Shown one piece after another: positions 40,827 through 47,046 of a stretch of DNA of 64,000 bases; position 1 is the first letter of the stretch; each line of letters begins with the position of its first letter. Position numbers and translations under genes: made by a program. This DNA is from Haloarcula sp. CBA1129 (lineage in GTDB: Archaea > Halobacteriota > Halobacteria > Halobacteriales > Haloarculaceae), in the NCBI RefSeq assembly GCF_008729015.1, contig NZ_RKSM01000001.1, positions 2,356,001-2,420,000 of the forward strand. Direction: 5' to 3'. The notes under the pieces were generated by a model. The model was given only the letters and a program-made list of their open reading frames with translations. It was not told where the DNA came from and did not search any database.

Positions 40827-42731
40827 ATGGCGAGCAACAAGATTCTGGGTATCGACCTTGGGACCACGAACAGCGCGTTCGCGGTCATGGAAGGTGGCGA
40901 TCCCGAAATCATTGTCAACGGTGAAGGCGAGCGCACGACACCCTCTGTCGTCGCGTTCGACGACGGCGAGCGACTCGTCGGGAAACCGGCGAAGAACCAA
41001 GCGATAAAGAACCCCGACCAGACCATCCAGTCGATCAAGCGCCACATGGGCGAAGACGACTACACGGTCGAACTGGACGGGGAGGAGTACACGCCCGAGC
41101 AGGTCTCGGCGATGATCCTCCAGAAGATCAAACACGACGCCGAAGAGTACCTCGGCGACGAGATCGAGAAGGCAGTCATCACGGTCCCGGCGTACTTCAA
41201 CGACCGACAGCGCCAAGCGACCAAGGACGCCGGCGAGATCGCCGGCTTCGAGGTCGAGCGCATCGTCAACGAGCCGACGGCGGCCGCGATGGCCTACGGC
41301 CTCGACGACGAGTCCGATCAGACTGTCCTCGTGTACGACCTCGGTGGCGGGACCTTCGACGTGTCCATCCTCGATCTGGGTGGCGGCGTCTACGAGGTCG
41401 TCGCGACCAACGGGGACAACGACCTCGGTGGCGACGACTGGGACCACGCGATCATCGACTACCTCGCAGACGAGTTCGAGGCCGAACACGGCATCGACCT
41501 CCGCGACGACCGGCAGGCGCTCCAGCGCTTGACCGAGGCCGCCGAGGAAGCCAAGATCGAACTCTCCTCACGCAAGGAGACCCGCATCAACCTCCCGTTC
41601 ATCGCGACTACGGACGACGGGCCGCTGGACCTCGAACAGAAGATCACGCGCGCGAAGTTCGAATCACTCACCGAGGACCTCATCGAGCGCACCGTCGGTC
41701 CGACGGAGCAGGCCCTGTCCGATGCCGACTACGACAAGGGCGACATCGACGAGGTCATCCTCGTCGGTGGTTCGACGCGGATGCCGCAGGTTCAGGACAA
41801 GGTCGGGGAGATGACCGATCAGGAGCCGAAAAAGAACGTCAACCCCGACGAGGCCGTCGCACTGGGCGCGGCCATTCAGGCTGGCGTCCTCTCGGGCGAC
41901 GTGGACGACATCGTCCTGCTCGACGTGACGCCGCTGTCCCTCGGTGTCGAGGTCAAGGGCGGTCTGTTCGAGCGACTCATCGACAAGAACACCACGATCC
42001 CGACCGAGGAGTCGAAGATTTTCACCACCGCGCAGGCTAACCAGACGCAGGTCCAGATCCGCGTCTTCCAAGGTGAACGTGAAATCGCCGAGGAGAACGA
42101 ACTGCTCGGTGCGTTCGCGCTTTCGGGCATCCCGCCGGCCCCCGCGGGCACGCCCCAGATCGAGGTGTCGTTCAACATCGACGAGAACGGCATCGTCAAC
42201 GTCGAAGCCGAGGACAAGGGCTCGGGCAACAAGGAGGACATCACCATCGAAGGCGGTGCTGGCCTCTCTGACGACCAGATCGAGGAGATGCAACAGGAAG
42301 CCGAACAGCACGCCGAGGAGGACGAGCAGCGCCGCGAGCGCATCGAAGCCCGCAACGAGGCCGAGGCATCCGTCCGCCGTGCTGAGACGCTTCTCGACGA
42401 GAACGAGGAGGAGATCGACGACGACCTCCGCTCCGACATCGAGGCGAAAATCGAGGACGTCGAGGAAGTCCTCGAAGACGAGGACGCCGAGAAGGAAGAC
42501 TACGAAGAGGTCACCGAGACCCTGAGCGAGGAACTACAGGAAATCGGGAAGCAAATGTATCAGGAGCAGGCCCAGCAGGCCGCCGGCGGAGCCGCGGGCG
42601 CTGGTCCGGGTGGCGCAGCCGGCCCCGGCGGGGCTGCCGGTCCCGGCGGCGCAGCAGGCGGCGCGGCCGAGCAGGGCGAGGAGTACGTCGACGCTGACTT
42701 CGAAGACGTCGACGAAGACGACGAAGAGTAG
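40827..42731 (+). CDS. dnaK: Chaperone DnaK (Hsp70)
   Basis: Hsp70 chaperone of 634 residues. The ATPase domain (about 1-365) begins with [20 protein letters not shown] and has [14 protein letters not shown] and [13 protein letters not shown]. The interdomain linker is [14 protein letters not shown], then the substrate-binding beta domain and helical lid. The tail is Gly/Ala/Pro-rich and ends [17 protein letters not shown], close to the bacterial C-terminal EEVxD signature region. It works with GrpE and DnaJ. dnaJ is not adjacent but 3.2 kb downstream. Confidence 0.97.
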
Positions 42732-43082: not shown

Positions 43083-43400
43083 ATGAACAATCAGAACCAG
43101 ATGCAGCCACATCGTCTGAGCACGCAACTCGACGCGGTGCGACATGAAGACCGCCGCCAGATACTATTCGCGTTACGTGACGTAGAGCGGTGGCGGCCAT
43201 CCGTTTCGGCGTTTGATGACGATCGGACGCCAGTTGGAGAGCCGCCGATCCCGGCGGAGCTCTATCACTGCCAGCTCCCGAAACTGGCAGAGATGGGGCT
43301 CATCGAATGGGATCGGGAGACTCACTGGGTAACACGCGGCTCGGAGTACGAGCGGGTCCGGCCGCTACTTGCGTTTCTCGCCGAGCAGTACAACGAGTGA
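43083..43400 (+). CDS. Small winged-helix regulator (DUF7344-like)
   Basis: Protein of 105 residues. A helix-turn-helix region (about 12-80) reads LSTQLDAVRHEDRRQILFALRDVERW, then ELYHCQLPKLAEMGLIEWDRETHWVTRGSEYERVRPLLAFL. The form is a winged helix ending in a wing and a C-terminal helix, typical of the many haloarchaeal ArsR/DUF7344-type regulators. It is followed by the convergent trmB-like gene. Target unknown; the inverted repeat upstream of its own promoter suggests autoregulation. Confidence 0.7.
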   Translation: MNNQNQMQPHRLSTQLDAVRHEDRRQILFALRDVERWRPSVSAFDDDRTPVGEPPIPAELYHCQLPKLAEMGLIEWDRETHWVTRGSEYERVRPLLAFLAEQYNE

Positions 43401-43434: not shown

Positions 43435-44244
43435 CTAATCCTGTTCTAGCGGTGTCATTTCCACGACGCCCTGCGAGAGGAGCCGGCGTGCGATGACGAT
43501 GAGCCCGTTTCTGAGTCCGGTCGCGAAGATGGCCTGTTCGTCGCTAGTCTGGGGGTCGATTGAGCTGACGAGCAGCGTCGACCGGTCGACGAGCAGGAGT
43601 CGTCCGACAGCAGCGTCCTCCGCAGGAGTCAGTTCACCGTGGAGCCACCCCAACTCCGACAGAAACGCGGTGGCGCGTGGGATTTGCTGTTCCACGCGGT
43701 CACGGATCGAGGCGGACCCGCTCCCGACGATGAGTTCGATGTCCGGGTCGAGCGAATTGAGTTCCTCGATCAGCGACTCTGAGAGGACCGCTTCAGTGCC
43801 GATGACGAGCACTACTTCCTCGGTCGCGTCCTCGATGATCGCCGCGGCCCGGTTCTCGATAGCATCGGACCCGGAAAGCGACCAGACTTCCTGTAGCTCG
43901 GCCTCTTCGTCTTCGGACTCGATGCTCCCCATCTCGCGCAGTGTGGACTGGAGGCGCTCGACGCGGTCCTCGTACTGAGTGCGAAGCGTTTCGGTGGCCT
44001 CAGAGAGCGGGACAGCCCGGAACTGCTGTGGGCTCGAGTGCTGTACCTCGACCAGCCCCTTCGCTTCGAGGATTCGGACGGCATCGTAGACGCGCGTCCT
44101 CGGAACCTCCGTCACCTCGCTCAGCCCCTTTGCTGTGCCGCTGGACATCCGAGAAAGTCCGACAAAACATTTCGCCTCATACTCTTTCAATCCCAACTCC
44201 TGAAGTAAACTGACCGCCTCTTCGTGTGTTGCATCAGATGTCAT
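43435..44244 (-). CDS. TrmB-family transcriptional regulator
   Basis: Regulator of 269 residues from the ATG at 44244; a TTG nine bases upstream is less likely. The N-terminal winged helix (about 8-75) reads AVSLLQELGLKEYEAKCFVGLSRMSSGTAKGLSEVTEVPRTRVYDAVRILEAKGLVEV, the classic TrmB domain. A coiled helix (about 85-110) and a C-terminal alpha/beta domain follow (about 120-265; EEVVLVIGTEAVLSESLIEELNSL, GRLLLVDRSTLLVSSID). The C-terminal domain is of the phospholipase-D-like type, not the longer sugar-binding one. Its start codon overlaps a 13-base sequence repeated in a hairpin 275 bases upstream. Confidence 0.85.
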   Translation of the reverse strand: MTSDATHEEAVSLLQELGLKEYEAKCFVGLSRMSSGTAKGLSEVTEVPRTRVYDAVRILEAKGLVEVQHSSPQQFRAVPLSEATETLRTQYEDRVERLQSTLREMGSIESEDEEAELQEVWSLSGSDAIENRAAAIIEDATEEVVLVIGTEAVLSESLIEELNSLDPDIELIVGSGSASIRDRVEQQIPRATAFLSELGWLHGELTPAEDAAVGRLLLVDRSTLLVSSIDPQTSDEQAIFATGLRNGLIVIARRLLSQGVVEMTPLEQD

Positions 44245-44255
44245 GTGTCCCAACC
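44243..44255 (+). repeat. 13-base direct repeat, copy 1, at the trmB start codon
   Basis: ATGTGTCCCAACC, identical to 44518-44530. Copy 1 covers the trmB start codon. Weak similarity continues after both copies (TTCATCT and ACATCT). Confidence 0.55.
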
Positions 44256-44499
44256 TTCATCTCGGTCAAACCCGAGGATATATAGAGAGATGACGCCCAC
44301 AGGTAAAAGACGTTGTTACTGTAACACTGCCGGCTCTTGTCTCGGTGATCGTTGGCCGACAGACGGTCCATAGCGTGTTGTGACGGAACGGGCTTCTAGC
44401 CGTTGTAATCGACGATCTATGGCTATATTGTTTCGGCACTACACTTTTGTTTACTCAATTAATCACACAACTGTTATACATGGGTGCTGAGTATGAGTA

Positions 44500-44549
44500 A
44501 GTGGCACGCAGCACTCTATGTGTCCCAACCACATCTGCTGCGTGCTACT
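44500..44549. other. Long hairpin with a 14-pair stem and an inner stem
   Basis: Bases 44500-44513 pair with 44536-44549 over 14 positions with one G-T wobble. Inside, ATGTG (44518-44522) pairs with CACAT (44530-44534) around the loop TCCCAAC. The inner arm contains copy 2 of the 13-base repeat found at the trmB start. It could be a small RNA, an IS200/IS605-type hairpin end, or a regulator site. Confidence 0.55.
44518..44530 (+). repeat. 13-base direct repeat, copy 2, in the hairpin loop
   Basis: ATGTGTCCCAACC, identical to the copy at the trmB start codon and in the same orientation. Confidence 0.55.
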
Positions 44550-44878
44550 TTCACGAAACGACACTGACAGGCTTCGAGCGACGCGTCCGGAACGTGATTC
44601 TACCGAGGACCGTTGCTGTCAGAGACACCACAGCGGTCATCCCACTGCCCGTGTTTCGGCCATAACTTCACCGCTCGGCGGAAACAGTTTGCTTGGAAAA
44701 GCAAGTTCATCGGATAGCTATTGTATCAGTCTACAGTTATAAAATGTAATTAGCACTGGTACGGTCACAAACGCTTCACCGGTGTTTACTCGAGTAGTAG
44801 ACAGCCGTTTCATACATCATATTTTCAACTAATAAATTGACAGTAGAATTAAGATGATAGATGAACATATATCTAGTA

Positions 44879-45187
44879 ATGAGTGGGTCCGACAGGCGGC
44901 CCGACCGGACATCCGACAACCCGGACACCCTCCACGCGGAGTTCGACTGGGGCGCTGTCTCACCATCAGTCGCGGTGATACAAACGGTCGCAATCGCGGC
45001 TGACCGAGAGGCCATAGAGTTAGCTCCCCTCATTGAAACACTCGATCCGGACGCGCTTGACGAACTCTTTACCCATTCATCAGGCCCGGACAGTGCCGTC
45101 TCGCTCTCGTTTCAGTTGGGGCAGTACGCAGTGACCGTGACCGGAACCGGGGACGTGTATGTCCGTACTCAGCCCGTCCGCTCGTGA
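44879..45187 (+). CDS. HalOD1-domain protein
   Basis: Small protein of 102 residues; an ATG at 44861 would add six and better fits a leaderless transcript from the TATA at 44831-44838. The C-terminal two thirds match the halobacterial output domain 1: AIAADREAIELAPLIETLDPDALDELF, then VSLSFQLGQYAVTVTGTGDVYV. HalOD1 modules are found alone or fused to receivers in haloarchaea and are assumed to act in signalling; their biochemical role is unknown. The surrounding DNA is AT-rich. Confidence 0.7.
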   Translation: MSGSDRRPDRTSDNPDTLHAEFDWGAVSPSVAVIQTVAIAADREAIELAPLIETLDPDALDELFTHSSGPDSAVSLSFQLGQYAVTVTGTGDVYVRTQPVRS

Positions 45188-45891: not shown

Positions 45892-47046
45892 ATGAGTCAG
45901 GATTTCTACGAGATACTGGGTGTCTCTCGGGACGCCTCCGAAGACGATATCAAGGAGGCCTATCGGGAGAAAGCCCGGGAATACCACCCGGACGTGAGCG
46001 ACGACCCCGACGCCGAGGAGAAGTTCAAGCAGGCCAAGAAGGCCAAAGAGGTCCTCACCGACGAGGAGAAGCGCCAGATGTACGACCAGATGGGCCACGA
46101 GCGCTTCGAGCAGGCCGAGAAGCGCGGCGGCGCTGGCGGTGGCGGCGGCCGCGGTGGGATGGGCGGAGACCCCTTTGGCGGCGGTGCCGGCGGCTTCGAT
46201 ATGCAGGACATCTTCGACCAGTTCTTCGGTGGTGGCGGTGGCGGCGGCCGCGGTGGCAGCCGTCGGCGACAGGGGCAAGACCTCCAGACGCGACTTGAGA
46301 TCGACCTCGAGGAGGCGTACAACGGTGCGACGAAGCAACTGAACGTCACCCGGCCGGAAGCCTGCGACGACTGCGACGGGGCCGGGCATCCGCCGGGGGC
46401 CGACTCGGAGACCTGTCCGGAGTGTAACGGACAGGGCCAGACAACACAGGTCCAGCAGACGCCGATGGGACGGGTCCAGCAGACCACGACCTGCCGCCGG
46501 TGTGAGGGCGAGGGGACGCTGTACGACGAGACGTGTTCGACCTGCCGCGGCAACGGCGTCGTCCAGAACGACGCGAGCCTCGAAATCGAGGTTCCGGCCG
46601 GCATCGCCAGCGGGCAGACCCTCCGGATGGGACGCGAGGGCGCGCCCGGCGAGAACGGCGGCCCGAACGGTGATCTGCTCATCGAGGTGAGTGTGCGCGA
46701 CCACCCGGACTTCGAGCGCGACGGCGACGACCTGCAACACCAGCAGGCCATCTCGTTCCCGCAGGCCGTCTTCGGCGACACCATCACCGTTCCGACGCTA
46801 GACGGCGAGGTGGAGGTCGACGTGCCCAGCGGCACCCAGAGCGGCGAGGTGTTCCGTCTAGAGGGGAAAGGTATGCCGCGCCTCCGCCGTCGGGGCCGTG
46901 GCGACCTCTACGTACAGGTGCAGGTCGTCACGCCCGACAGCCTCAACACCGAACAGAAGGAGGCCCTCGAACAGTTCGCGGAGGCCGGCGGCGAGGAAGT
47001 CGACGTCGAGGAAGGCTTCTTCGAGAAGCTGAAGAACTCGCTGTAG
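45892..47046 (+). CDS. dnaJ: Chaperone DnaJ (Hsp40)
   Basis: Type I J-protein of 384 residues. The J domain (about 1-65) has the HPD motif in YHPDVSD. A Gly/Phe-rich segment (about 80-120) follows. The zinc domain holds four CxxCxGxG repeats (CDDCDGAG, CPECNGQG, CRRCEGEG, CSTCRGNG, about 158-220). The C-terminal substrate-binding domains have GEVFRLEGKGMPRLRRRGRGDL. It stimulates DnaK ATPase and delivers clients. Its stop abuts the stop of the convergent MazG-like gene with no base between. Confidence 0.97.
   Translation: MSQDFYEILGVSRDASEDDIKEAYREKAREYHPDVSDDPDAEEKFKQAKKAKEVLTDEEKRQMYDQMGHERFEQAEKRGGAGGGGGRGGMGGDPFGGGAGGFDMQDIFDQFFGGGGGGGRGGSRRRQGQDLQTRLEIDLEEAYNGATKQLNVTRPEACDDCDGAGHPPGADSETCPECNGQGQTTQVQQTPMGRVQQTTTCRRCEGEGTLYDETCSTCRGNGVVQNDASLEIEVPAGIASGQTLRMGREGAPGENGGPNGDLLIEVSVRDHPDFERDGDDLQHQQAISFPQAVFGDTITVPTLDGEVEVDVPSGTQSGEVFRLEGKGMPRLRRRGRGDLYVQVQVVTPDSLNTEQKEALEQFAEAGGEEVDVEEGFFEKLKNSL

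Follow-up and report, generated by a model that had tools for sequence, protein, structure and literature searches.

We have identified a hairpin at 44500-44549 on the + strand of the window (the whole 64,000-nucleotide stretch of Haloarcula sp. CBA1129 DNA that was analyzed) as a predicted small RNA, and it is likely that this RNA would act as a dedicated antisense regulator, pairing via its loop with the start of the mRNA of a neighboring TrmB-family gene (trmB; 43435-44244, - strand) and blocking its translation. The hairpin RNA would then probably set how much of the regulator is made. That the RNA is transcribed, that it pairs in the cell, and that it represses rather than activates trmB are steps that we infer from the sequences. 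In the predicted fold, an outer stem of 14 pairs (44500-44513 with 44536-44549), one of which is a G-T pair at 44503/44546, surrounds an inner stem of five pairs (44518-44522 with 44530-44534; ATGTG/CACAT) that encloses the seven-base loop TCCCAAC. The folding energy of the hairpin was -33.2 kcal/mol (z -2.91; 44480-44570), and 3 of 200 shuffles were equally low. At 44518-44530 (+), the hairpin loop contains ATGTGTCCCAACC, an exact 13-nt repeat of 44243-44255 with no other exact copy in the whole 64-kb window, and this segment would be antisense to the trmB start region. The ATG of trmB is at 44244-44242; read on the - strand, the copy at the start codon is GGTTGGGACACAT and extends into this ATG. 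The coordinates and the description of the hairpin with the trmB start-codon word in its loop, as given in a first-pass annotation of this DNA, were confirmed by both the sequence and the fold. No ORF of at least 60 aa within 44256-44860 was taken as a gene, while one 74-aa ORF is listed at 44518-44742.

On the trmB mRNA, the putative target site is GGUUGGGACACAU (44243-44255, - strand), which reaches into the start codon and is recognized from the sequence, the Haloarcula alignment, and the homologues described below. In the sequence and the fold, the trmB leader has a short stem-loop directly upstream of the target (CTCGG/CCGAG; 44261-44276, - strand), which was also seen by eye in relatives. 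The exact target sequence GGTTGGGACACATG was found once in the own genome. One further near-target, GGTTGGGACACACG, was noticed at G000:C1:2195309-2195322 (L154) with one mismatch and no start codon at the site; the nearest listed ORF on the same strand begins about 230 nt downstream, and this copy is possibly a second target or a chance occurrence.

The protein encoded by trmB has 269 aa and contains the PF01978 DNA-binding domain (E 3.3e-19), with a score of 68.9 bits against a gathering cut-off of 25.6. Also, a profile built from 20 relatives matched the TrmBL2/TrmB structures over about 170 positions. The protein is not an equivalog of the named TrmB, TrmBL1, or TrmBL2, as the best NCBIfam score was 65.9 against a cut-off of 650. 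OxsR (HVO_2970), another member of the TrmB family, has the PF01978 winged helix in common with the protein in the window; in the part of the source consulted, however, OxsR is a single-domain protein of 123 aa (PMC9426492), and its identity with the 269-aa protein was ruled out by size.

The first-pass annotation had judged the repeat very unlikely to arise by chance, and this was borne out within the genus Haloarcula. By DNA search, the intergenic region was matched in 12 of 32 genus genomes, providing 13 orthologous loci, and the other 20 genomes gave no match at that search level. In the alignment of these 13 loci, where the mean column identity was 71%, the start-codon copy was invariant at 12 of its 13 bases and the loop copy at all 13. 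Outside the coding end, the most strongly conserved stretches were the start-codon copy, AAAGACGTTRTTACT (probably a part of the trmB promoter), the block TTTACYCARTTAATCACAMAASKGTTAT (44450-44477), and the hairpin; all of them are retained even in the most diverged locus, that of G021, of which TrmB is 65% identical.

Beyond the genus, we examined 11 TrmB homologues with 44-61% identity (L030-L040). In all 11, GGTTGGGAC or its one-base variant was found just 5' of the start codon, and in eight, a hairpin whose loop contains GTCCCAAC was located about 215-320 nt upstream of TrmB. The hairpin or its loop is partly decayed in L031-L033. A covariance model built from six of the eight hairpin loci (called R2) matched 51 of 146 genomes and 13 of 22 genera within the family, and 93 of 392 genomes and 36 of 95 genera among genomes drawn from the order. 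A second model built from 60 matches (R3) matched 122 of 391 genomes (42 of 86 genera) drawn from the class and 26 of 392 genomes drawn from the phylum; every listed genome matched by R3 in these two samples belongs to the order of the window, and the majority of the sampled genomes had no match at the model threshold. R3 nonetheless matched two of the three genomes with decayed hairpins (G005 and G004), and it matched the hairpin in the window on the + strand at E 6.4e-7, with none of the 13 Haloarcula loci in its training set. When R3 was applied to 80 of the stretches (at least 120) that a 14-base scan of viral contigs brought in, it gave two matches, both confined to the interior and lacking the stem. 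In Rfam, the 64-kb window gave one tRNA elsewhere and nothing at the hairpin, 44300-44900 gave no match up to E 5, and three relatives gave one weak match to a CRISPR repeat away from the hairpin. Five genomes (G313, G310, G357, G430, and G295) were observed to have two to four hairpin matches each, some of which have near-identical loops.

The first-pass annotation had offered three alternatives for the hairpin: an RNA pairing with the trmB transcript, a site for a regulator protein, and an end of a mobile element. The first is the one that the comparative evidence strongly supports as a prediction, and the second is weakly placed. As to the third, an isolated imperfect palindrome in intergenic DNA would be in line with a remnant of an IS200/IS605-type or REP-like element, but a search of the own genome by BLAST and with R3 returned this single copy of the hairpin, and the promoter-like block and the TrmB neighborhood are kept across the order, where the hairpin recurs beside the same gene family; we consider such an origin extremely improbable. 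The lack of other genomic copies bears on mobility only, since a dedicated RNA gene is itself expected to be single-copy.

The complementarity between the loop and the start region was then evaluated in 105 loci from 90 genomes, which are the R2 matches of the family and order samples except for reverse-strand duplicates, 20 weaker rows of the order sample (30.4 bits or less), and Haloarcula loci already covered (clade 1 except G021, and G011). For every locus, we took the start codon at which the match to the loop was longest. In 93 loci, the opposite strand has an ORF at whose start lies an exact complement of the loop, 10-15 nt long; this complement reached at least 12 nt in 71 loci and at least 13 nt in 30. 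In the 94 loci with at least 9 nt, the distance between hairpin and target was 138-462 nt (median 282), and the target ORFs were 184-291 aa long, some being cut by the end of the locus; 93 and not 94 loci are counted because the 9-nt match in L114 is fortuitous and falls at an incorrect start. The hairpin is mostly upstream of trmB and divergent from it. In terms of base-pairing sRNAs as a class, conserved complementarity to the start region of a target is found here. Among the 12 loci without a match of at least 10 nt, L051 can form a 13-nt pairing only when G-U is allowed, L078, L080, and L084 are the rearranged loci described below, and L087, L114, and L119 have a copy of 11-12 nt at the usual distance with no open frame found there. 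A 12-nt copy is 917 nt away in L140, a 9-nt copy is 843 nt away in L134, and L096 has an 8-nt copy; L095 has no convincing target, and the core is altered in L081. Mismatches between loop and target comprised 26 G-U and 37 other cases, which is not evidence for RNA pairing because the scoring itself favors G-U.

Since the covariance model favors this loop, the test was repeated on loci picked by the TrmB protein alone; 80 loci were fetched, one of which had too little upstream DNA, leaving 79. A copy of at least 9 nt between arms of at least 6 bp was found in 54 of the 79 loci, as compared with 23 of 1580 shuffled upstream regions, although in L213, one of these 54, a sequence other than the core is copied. 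Several of the 25 loci failing this test have a degraded loop or mismatches: one mismatch in L228, for example, and two non-Watson-Crick positions in the Haloferax loci L192, L193, and L211. L223 is the rearranged Natronomonas locus described below, and no hairpin was recognized in L177, L207, L209, and L237. Also among the 25, the Halohasta loci L214, L229, and L235 were seen to have lost the cores of both the start region and the loop while keeping the promoter block, and L180 (Halorubrum sodomense) was seen to have an R2 match (424-479) on the opposite strand about 1.5 kb upstream of the TrmB gene, which is possibly another separated pair of hairpin and TrmB. A repeat arising by chance was rejected from the exactness of the repeat, its conservation in Haloarcula, and the TrmB-selected loci in comparison with the shuffles.

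Beside the fixed core, furthermore, the loop and the target have matching variants (ACAC/GTGT, ACCC/GGGT, and ACCA/TGGT). In 70 distinct loop/target combinations from 89 loci, the first flank position was Watson-Crick in 70 (mean of 35.2 with shuffled partners), the second in 64 (44.1), and the third in 46 (36.9), and the remaining five positions had no excess over the shuffles; these figures are inflated by the relatedness of the loci. Indeed, in a tree of TrmB with 89 rows, each site changed twice at the first flank position, so that independent changes are few, and tests with independent pairs were never contrary at the first two positions but were too few to reach significance. In ten genomes with at least two usable modules, a start region was matched better by its own RNA than by that of another module in 16 of 24 comparisons; the two were equal in four, and the own RNA was the poorer match in four. 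Here, modules without a 9-nt match were omitted and the three rearranged modules were added by hand. In the rearranged genomes G117 (Natronomonas gomsonensis), G131, and G116, the order on one strand is the hairpin, TrmB2, a HalOD1-like gene, a DUF7344-like gene, and TrmB1, and a 12-nt match to the TrmB1 target is retained at a distance of 2.2 kb. This persistence favors a diffusible factor and weighs against a divergent neighborhood being needed. In the rearranged loci L365, L366, and L367, ORFs of about 400-430 aa that by eye resemble those of TnpB-type transposons were noticed within a few kb of the hairpins.

The stem also bears on whether the conserved element works as RNA. The nine outer pairs were formed in 97.6% of 540 cells (60 ungapped sequences), and pairing fell to 15-60% in slid registers. 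Cells changed on both sides numbered 68 as compared with 17.7 in shuffles, and none of 500 shuffles was as high; pairs showing a double change were not unusually numerous (seven of nine vs 5.7 in shuffles, with 95 of 500 as high). A G-U pair on one strand is an A-C mismatch on the other, and deviations from Watson-Crick pairing can thus discriminate between the strands. On the strand that diverges from trmB, 67 distinct stems had 43 G-U, 7 A-C, and 15 other non-pairs, 33 TrmB-selected stems had 21, 7, and 22, and nine Haloarcula stems had 7, 2, and 1; the three sets overlap, and the first two are biased to G-U by the model having been built on the divergent strand. From these wobbles and the position of the promoter, we infer that the + strand, opposite to trmB, would be the transcribed one. 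It could instead be supposed that the shared 9-13 bases are two sites for a protein (TrmB or another regulator) on DNA or RNA, given that the core GTCCCAACC hardly varies and lies partly over the trmB start, which would provide two identical sites near divergent promoters. Such sites, however, would explain neither the covarying stem nor the strand-specific excess of G-U over A-C, and would give no reason for the match to be kept at 2.2 kb in the rearranged loci; the repeat as a regulator site, as raised in the earlier annotation, is conceivable but fits poorly, and we regard it as quite unlikely.

Upstream of the hairpin, a promoter-like block at 44450-44479 (+) consists of an operator-like TTTACTCAATTAATCACA followed by a BRE/TATA-like CACAACTGTTATA and is conserved in the 13 Haloarcula loci; the exact sequence ACYCRNTTAATCACA was found once in the own genome. 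Across the order, the block TYACYCRNNTAATCACAA and then a TATA-like element precede the stem at a near-constant spacing: AAT[CT]ACA was found in 86 of the 105 upstream regions and, in 81 of those 86, 41-43 nt before the stem arm. Given this spacing and the usual distance between TATA and transcription start in archaea, the RNA is predicted to start at around 44500-44504, the base of the stem.

As for the genomic context, trmB in the window is flanked by a DUF7344 gene on its far side (43083-43400, +; PF24035, E 1.1e-6) and, downstream of the hairpin, by a HalOD1-domain gene (44861-45187, +; PF18545, E 7.6e-20 for 44885-45184). From the translations, the module was seen by eye to lie between dnaK-like (40827-42731) and dnaJ-like (45892-47046) genes. 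In other loci, a second TrmB (trmB2) was recognized by a motif in 62 of 105, a minimum given that the motif missed some (probably including L098 and L113), at a median of 45 nt beyond the hairpin. In at least 62 of the 105 loci, the hairpin would therefore sit in the leader of trmB2. The main role of the hairpin may then lie in the 5' leader of the divergent gene, and the pairing would couple the mRNAs of both regulators or control trmB2 instead of trmB1. A further stem often intervening between the hairpin and trmB2 would be in line with this: a second short stem of at least 6 bp follows the hairpin in 93 of 105 loci, some ending in a terminator-like TTTT, although only longer ones are meaningful because shuffles give 43%. 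The remaining 43 loci, however, have no recognized second TrmB (an AsnC/Lrp-like gene in five, a HalOD1-like gene in three, and neither in 35), and the hairpin in the window is kept although its next gene, HalOD1, starts 311 nt on. The window has neither trmB2 nor a second stem after the hairpin, and the lack of the stem that follows in many other loci counts against the antisense reading. A leader function is a real possibility, if somewhat short of probable, and overlaps with the antisense function without excluding it. HalOD1-like and DUF7344-like genes recur around the module (by eye outside the window), from which the window would represent a module that has lost trmB2.

In the antisense mechanism that we prefer, a gene for a small RNA, located on the + strand and oriented away from trmB, would produce a transcript beginning near the base of the stem and presenting UGUGUCCCAACC in its loop. 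Pairing of 12-14 nt of the loop with the start-codon region of the trmB mRNA, GGUUGGGACACAU(G), would capture this region while it is free; the ribosome would be kept off, initiation would be blocked, and the level of the TrmB regulator would be set or shut off. In predicted folds, the loop core was mostly open, with a mean unpaired probability of 0.72 in 90 loci and of 0.85 in the window; the corresponding values for the target core were 0.38 and 0.43, as compared with 0.49 for control leader windows. The duplex energies carry no weight here, as they include stem pairing. As the target core is partly paired, the pairing might open the trmB leader instead of closing it, and the RNA would then activate trmB. 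Other leader windows are indeed predicted to be less paired than the target core, but the pairing with the RNA extends to the start codon, which would favor blocking, and we thus consider activation unlikely. More speculatively, the antisense and leader functions might be combined as a cross-wired switch of two regulators across haloarchaea: translation of trmB1 would be shut off by an antisense loop located in the trmB2 leader RNA or, where trmB2 has been lost as in the window, on a free hairpin, and modules in one cell, each with its own matched loop and target, would work partly in parallel. We put this forward tentatively, with rather more doubt than confidence.

In its mode of action, the hairpin RNA would resemble IstR-type divergent antisense RNAs as well as the Methanosarcina sRNA162. 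In the type I pairs IstR-1/tisB, OhsC/shoB, and Orz/zor, as described in the part of PMC4147584 consulted, the antitoxin RNA gene adjoins its target divergently rather than lying opposite to it, and IstR-1 has a complementary stretch of 21 nt. Our predicted RNA gene likewise adjoins and diverges from its target and has short complementarity to it in 93 of 105 loci, but is archaeal, and its loop pairing would reach the start codon, whereas the IstR-1 class in the same text does not overlap the initiation site. Moreover, type I toxins are small, toxic, and usually hydrophobic proteins; the target here is a TrmB regulator of about 270 aa (269 aa in the window), and the hairpin RNA is therefore not a type I antitoxin. 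According to the excerpts consulted, sRNA162 of Methanosarcina mazei pairs via a single-stranded linker and targets MM2441, an ArsR-family regulator in a bicistronic operon; in our case, the hairpin loop would be used and would serve the adjacent gene. Haloarchaeal small RNAs are likewise represented by SHOxi and other sRNAs of Haloferax volcanii; SHOxi acts on an mRNA, destabilizing that of malic enzyme (PMC9426492, in part). No TrmB-dedicated hairpin appears in the portions of the Haloferax volcanii sRNA literature consulted (PMC12482152 and PMC5892119). Among the titles and abstract openings of papers open to full-text search, neither the RNA nor its pairing was described; the RNA may still be listed without a name in published material beyond this scope, such as subscription papers or supplementary tables of sRNA screens.

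To our knowledge, targets have been established for few archaeal small RNAs. Here, the predicted target is readable from the sequence in dozens of genera, including Haloarcula and Haloferax, and some of these genera are amenable to laboratory manipulation; translation control by base pairing in haloarchaea would hence be directly testable. If true, our proposal would add an RNA layer to TrmB regulators as well as a new RNA family for annotation.

We also noticed that the trmB promoter segments themselves may contain an operator-like copy of the promoter block of the hairpin RNA in the same orientation. Such a copy with a score of at least 8 was present in 20 of 94 distinct segments, that of the window not being among them, as compared with 0.27% of shuffles; the loci include L048, L049, L052, L053, L056, L061-L063, and L067. 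As a lead only, the promoter of the RNA might itself be controlled by TrmB.
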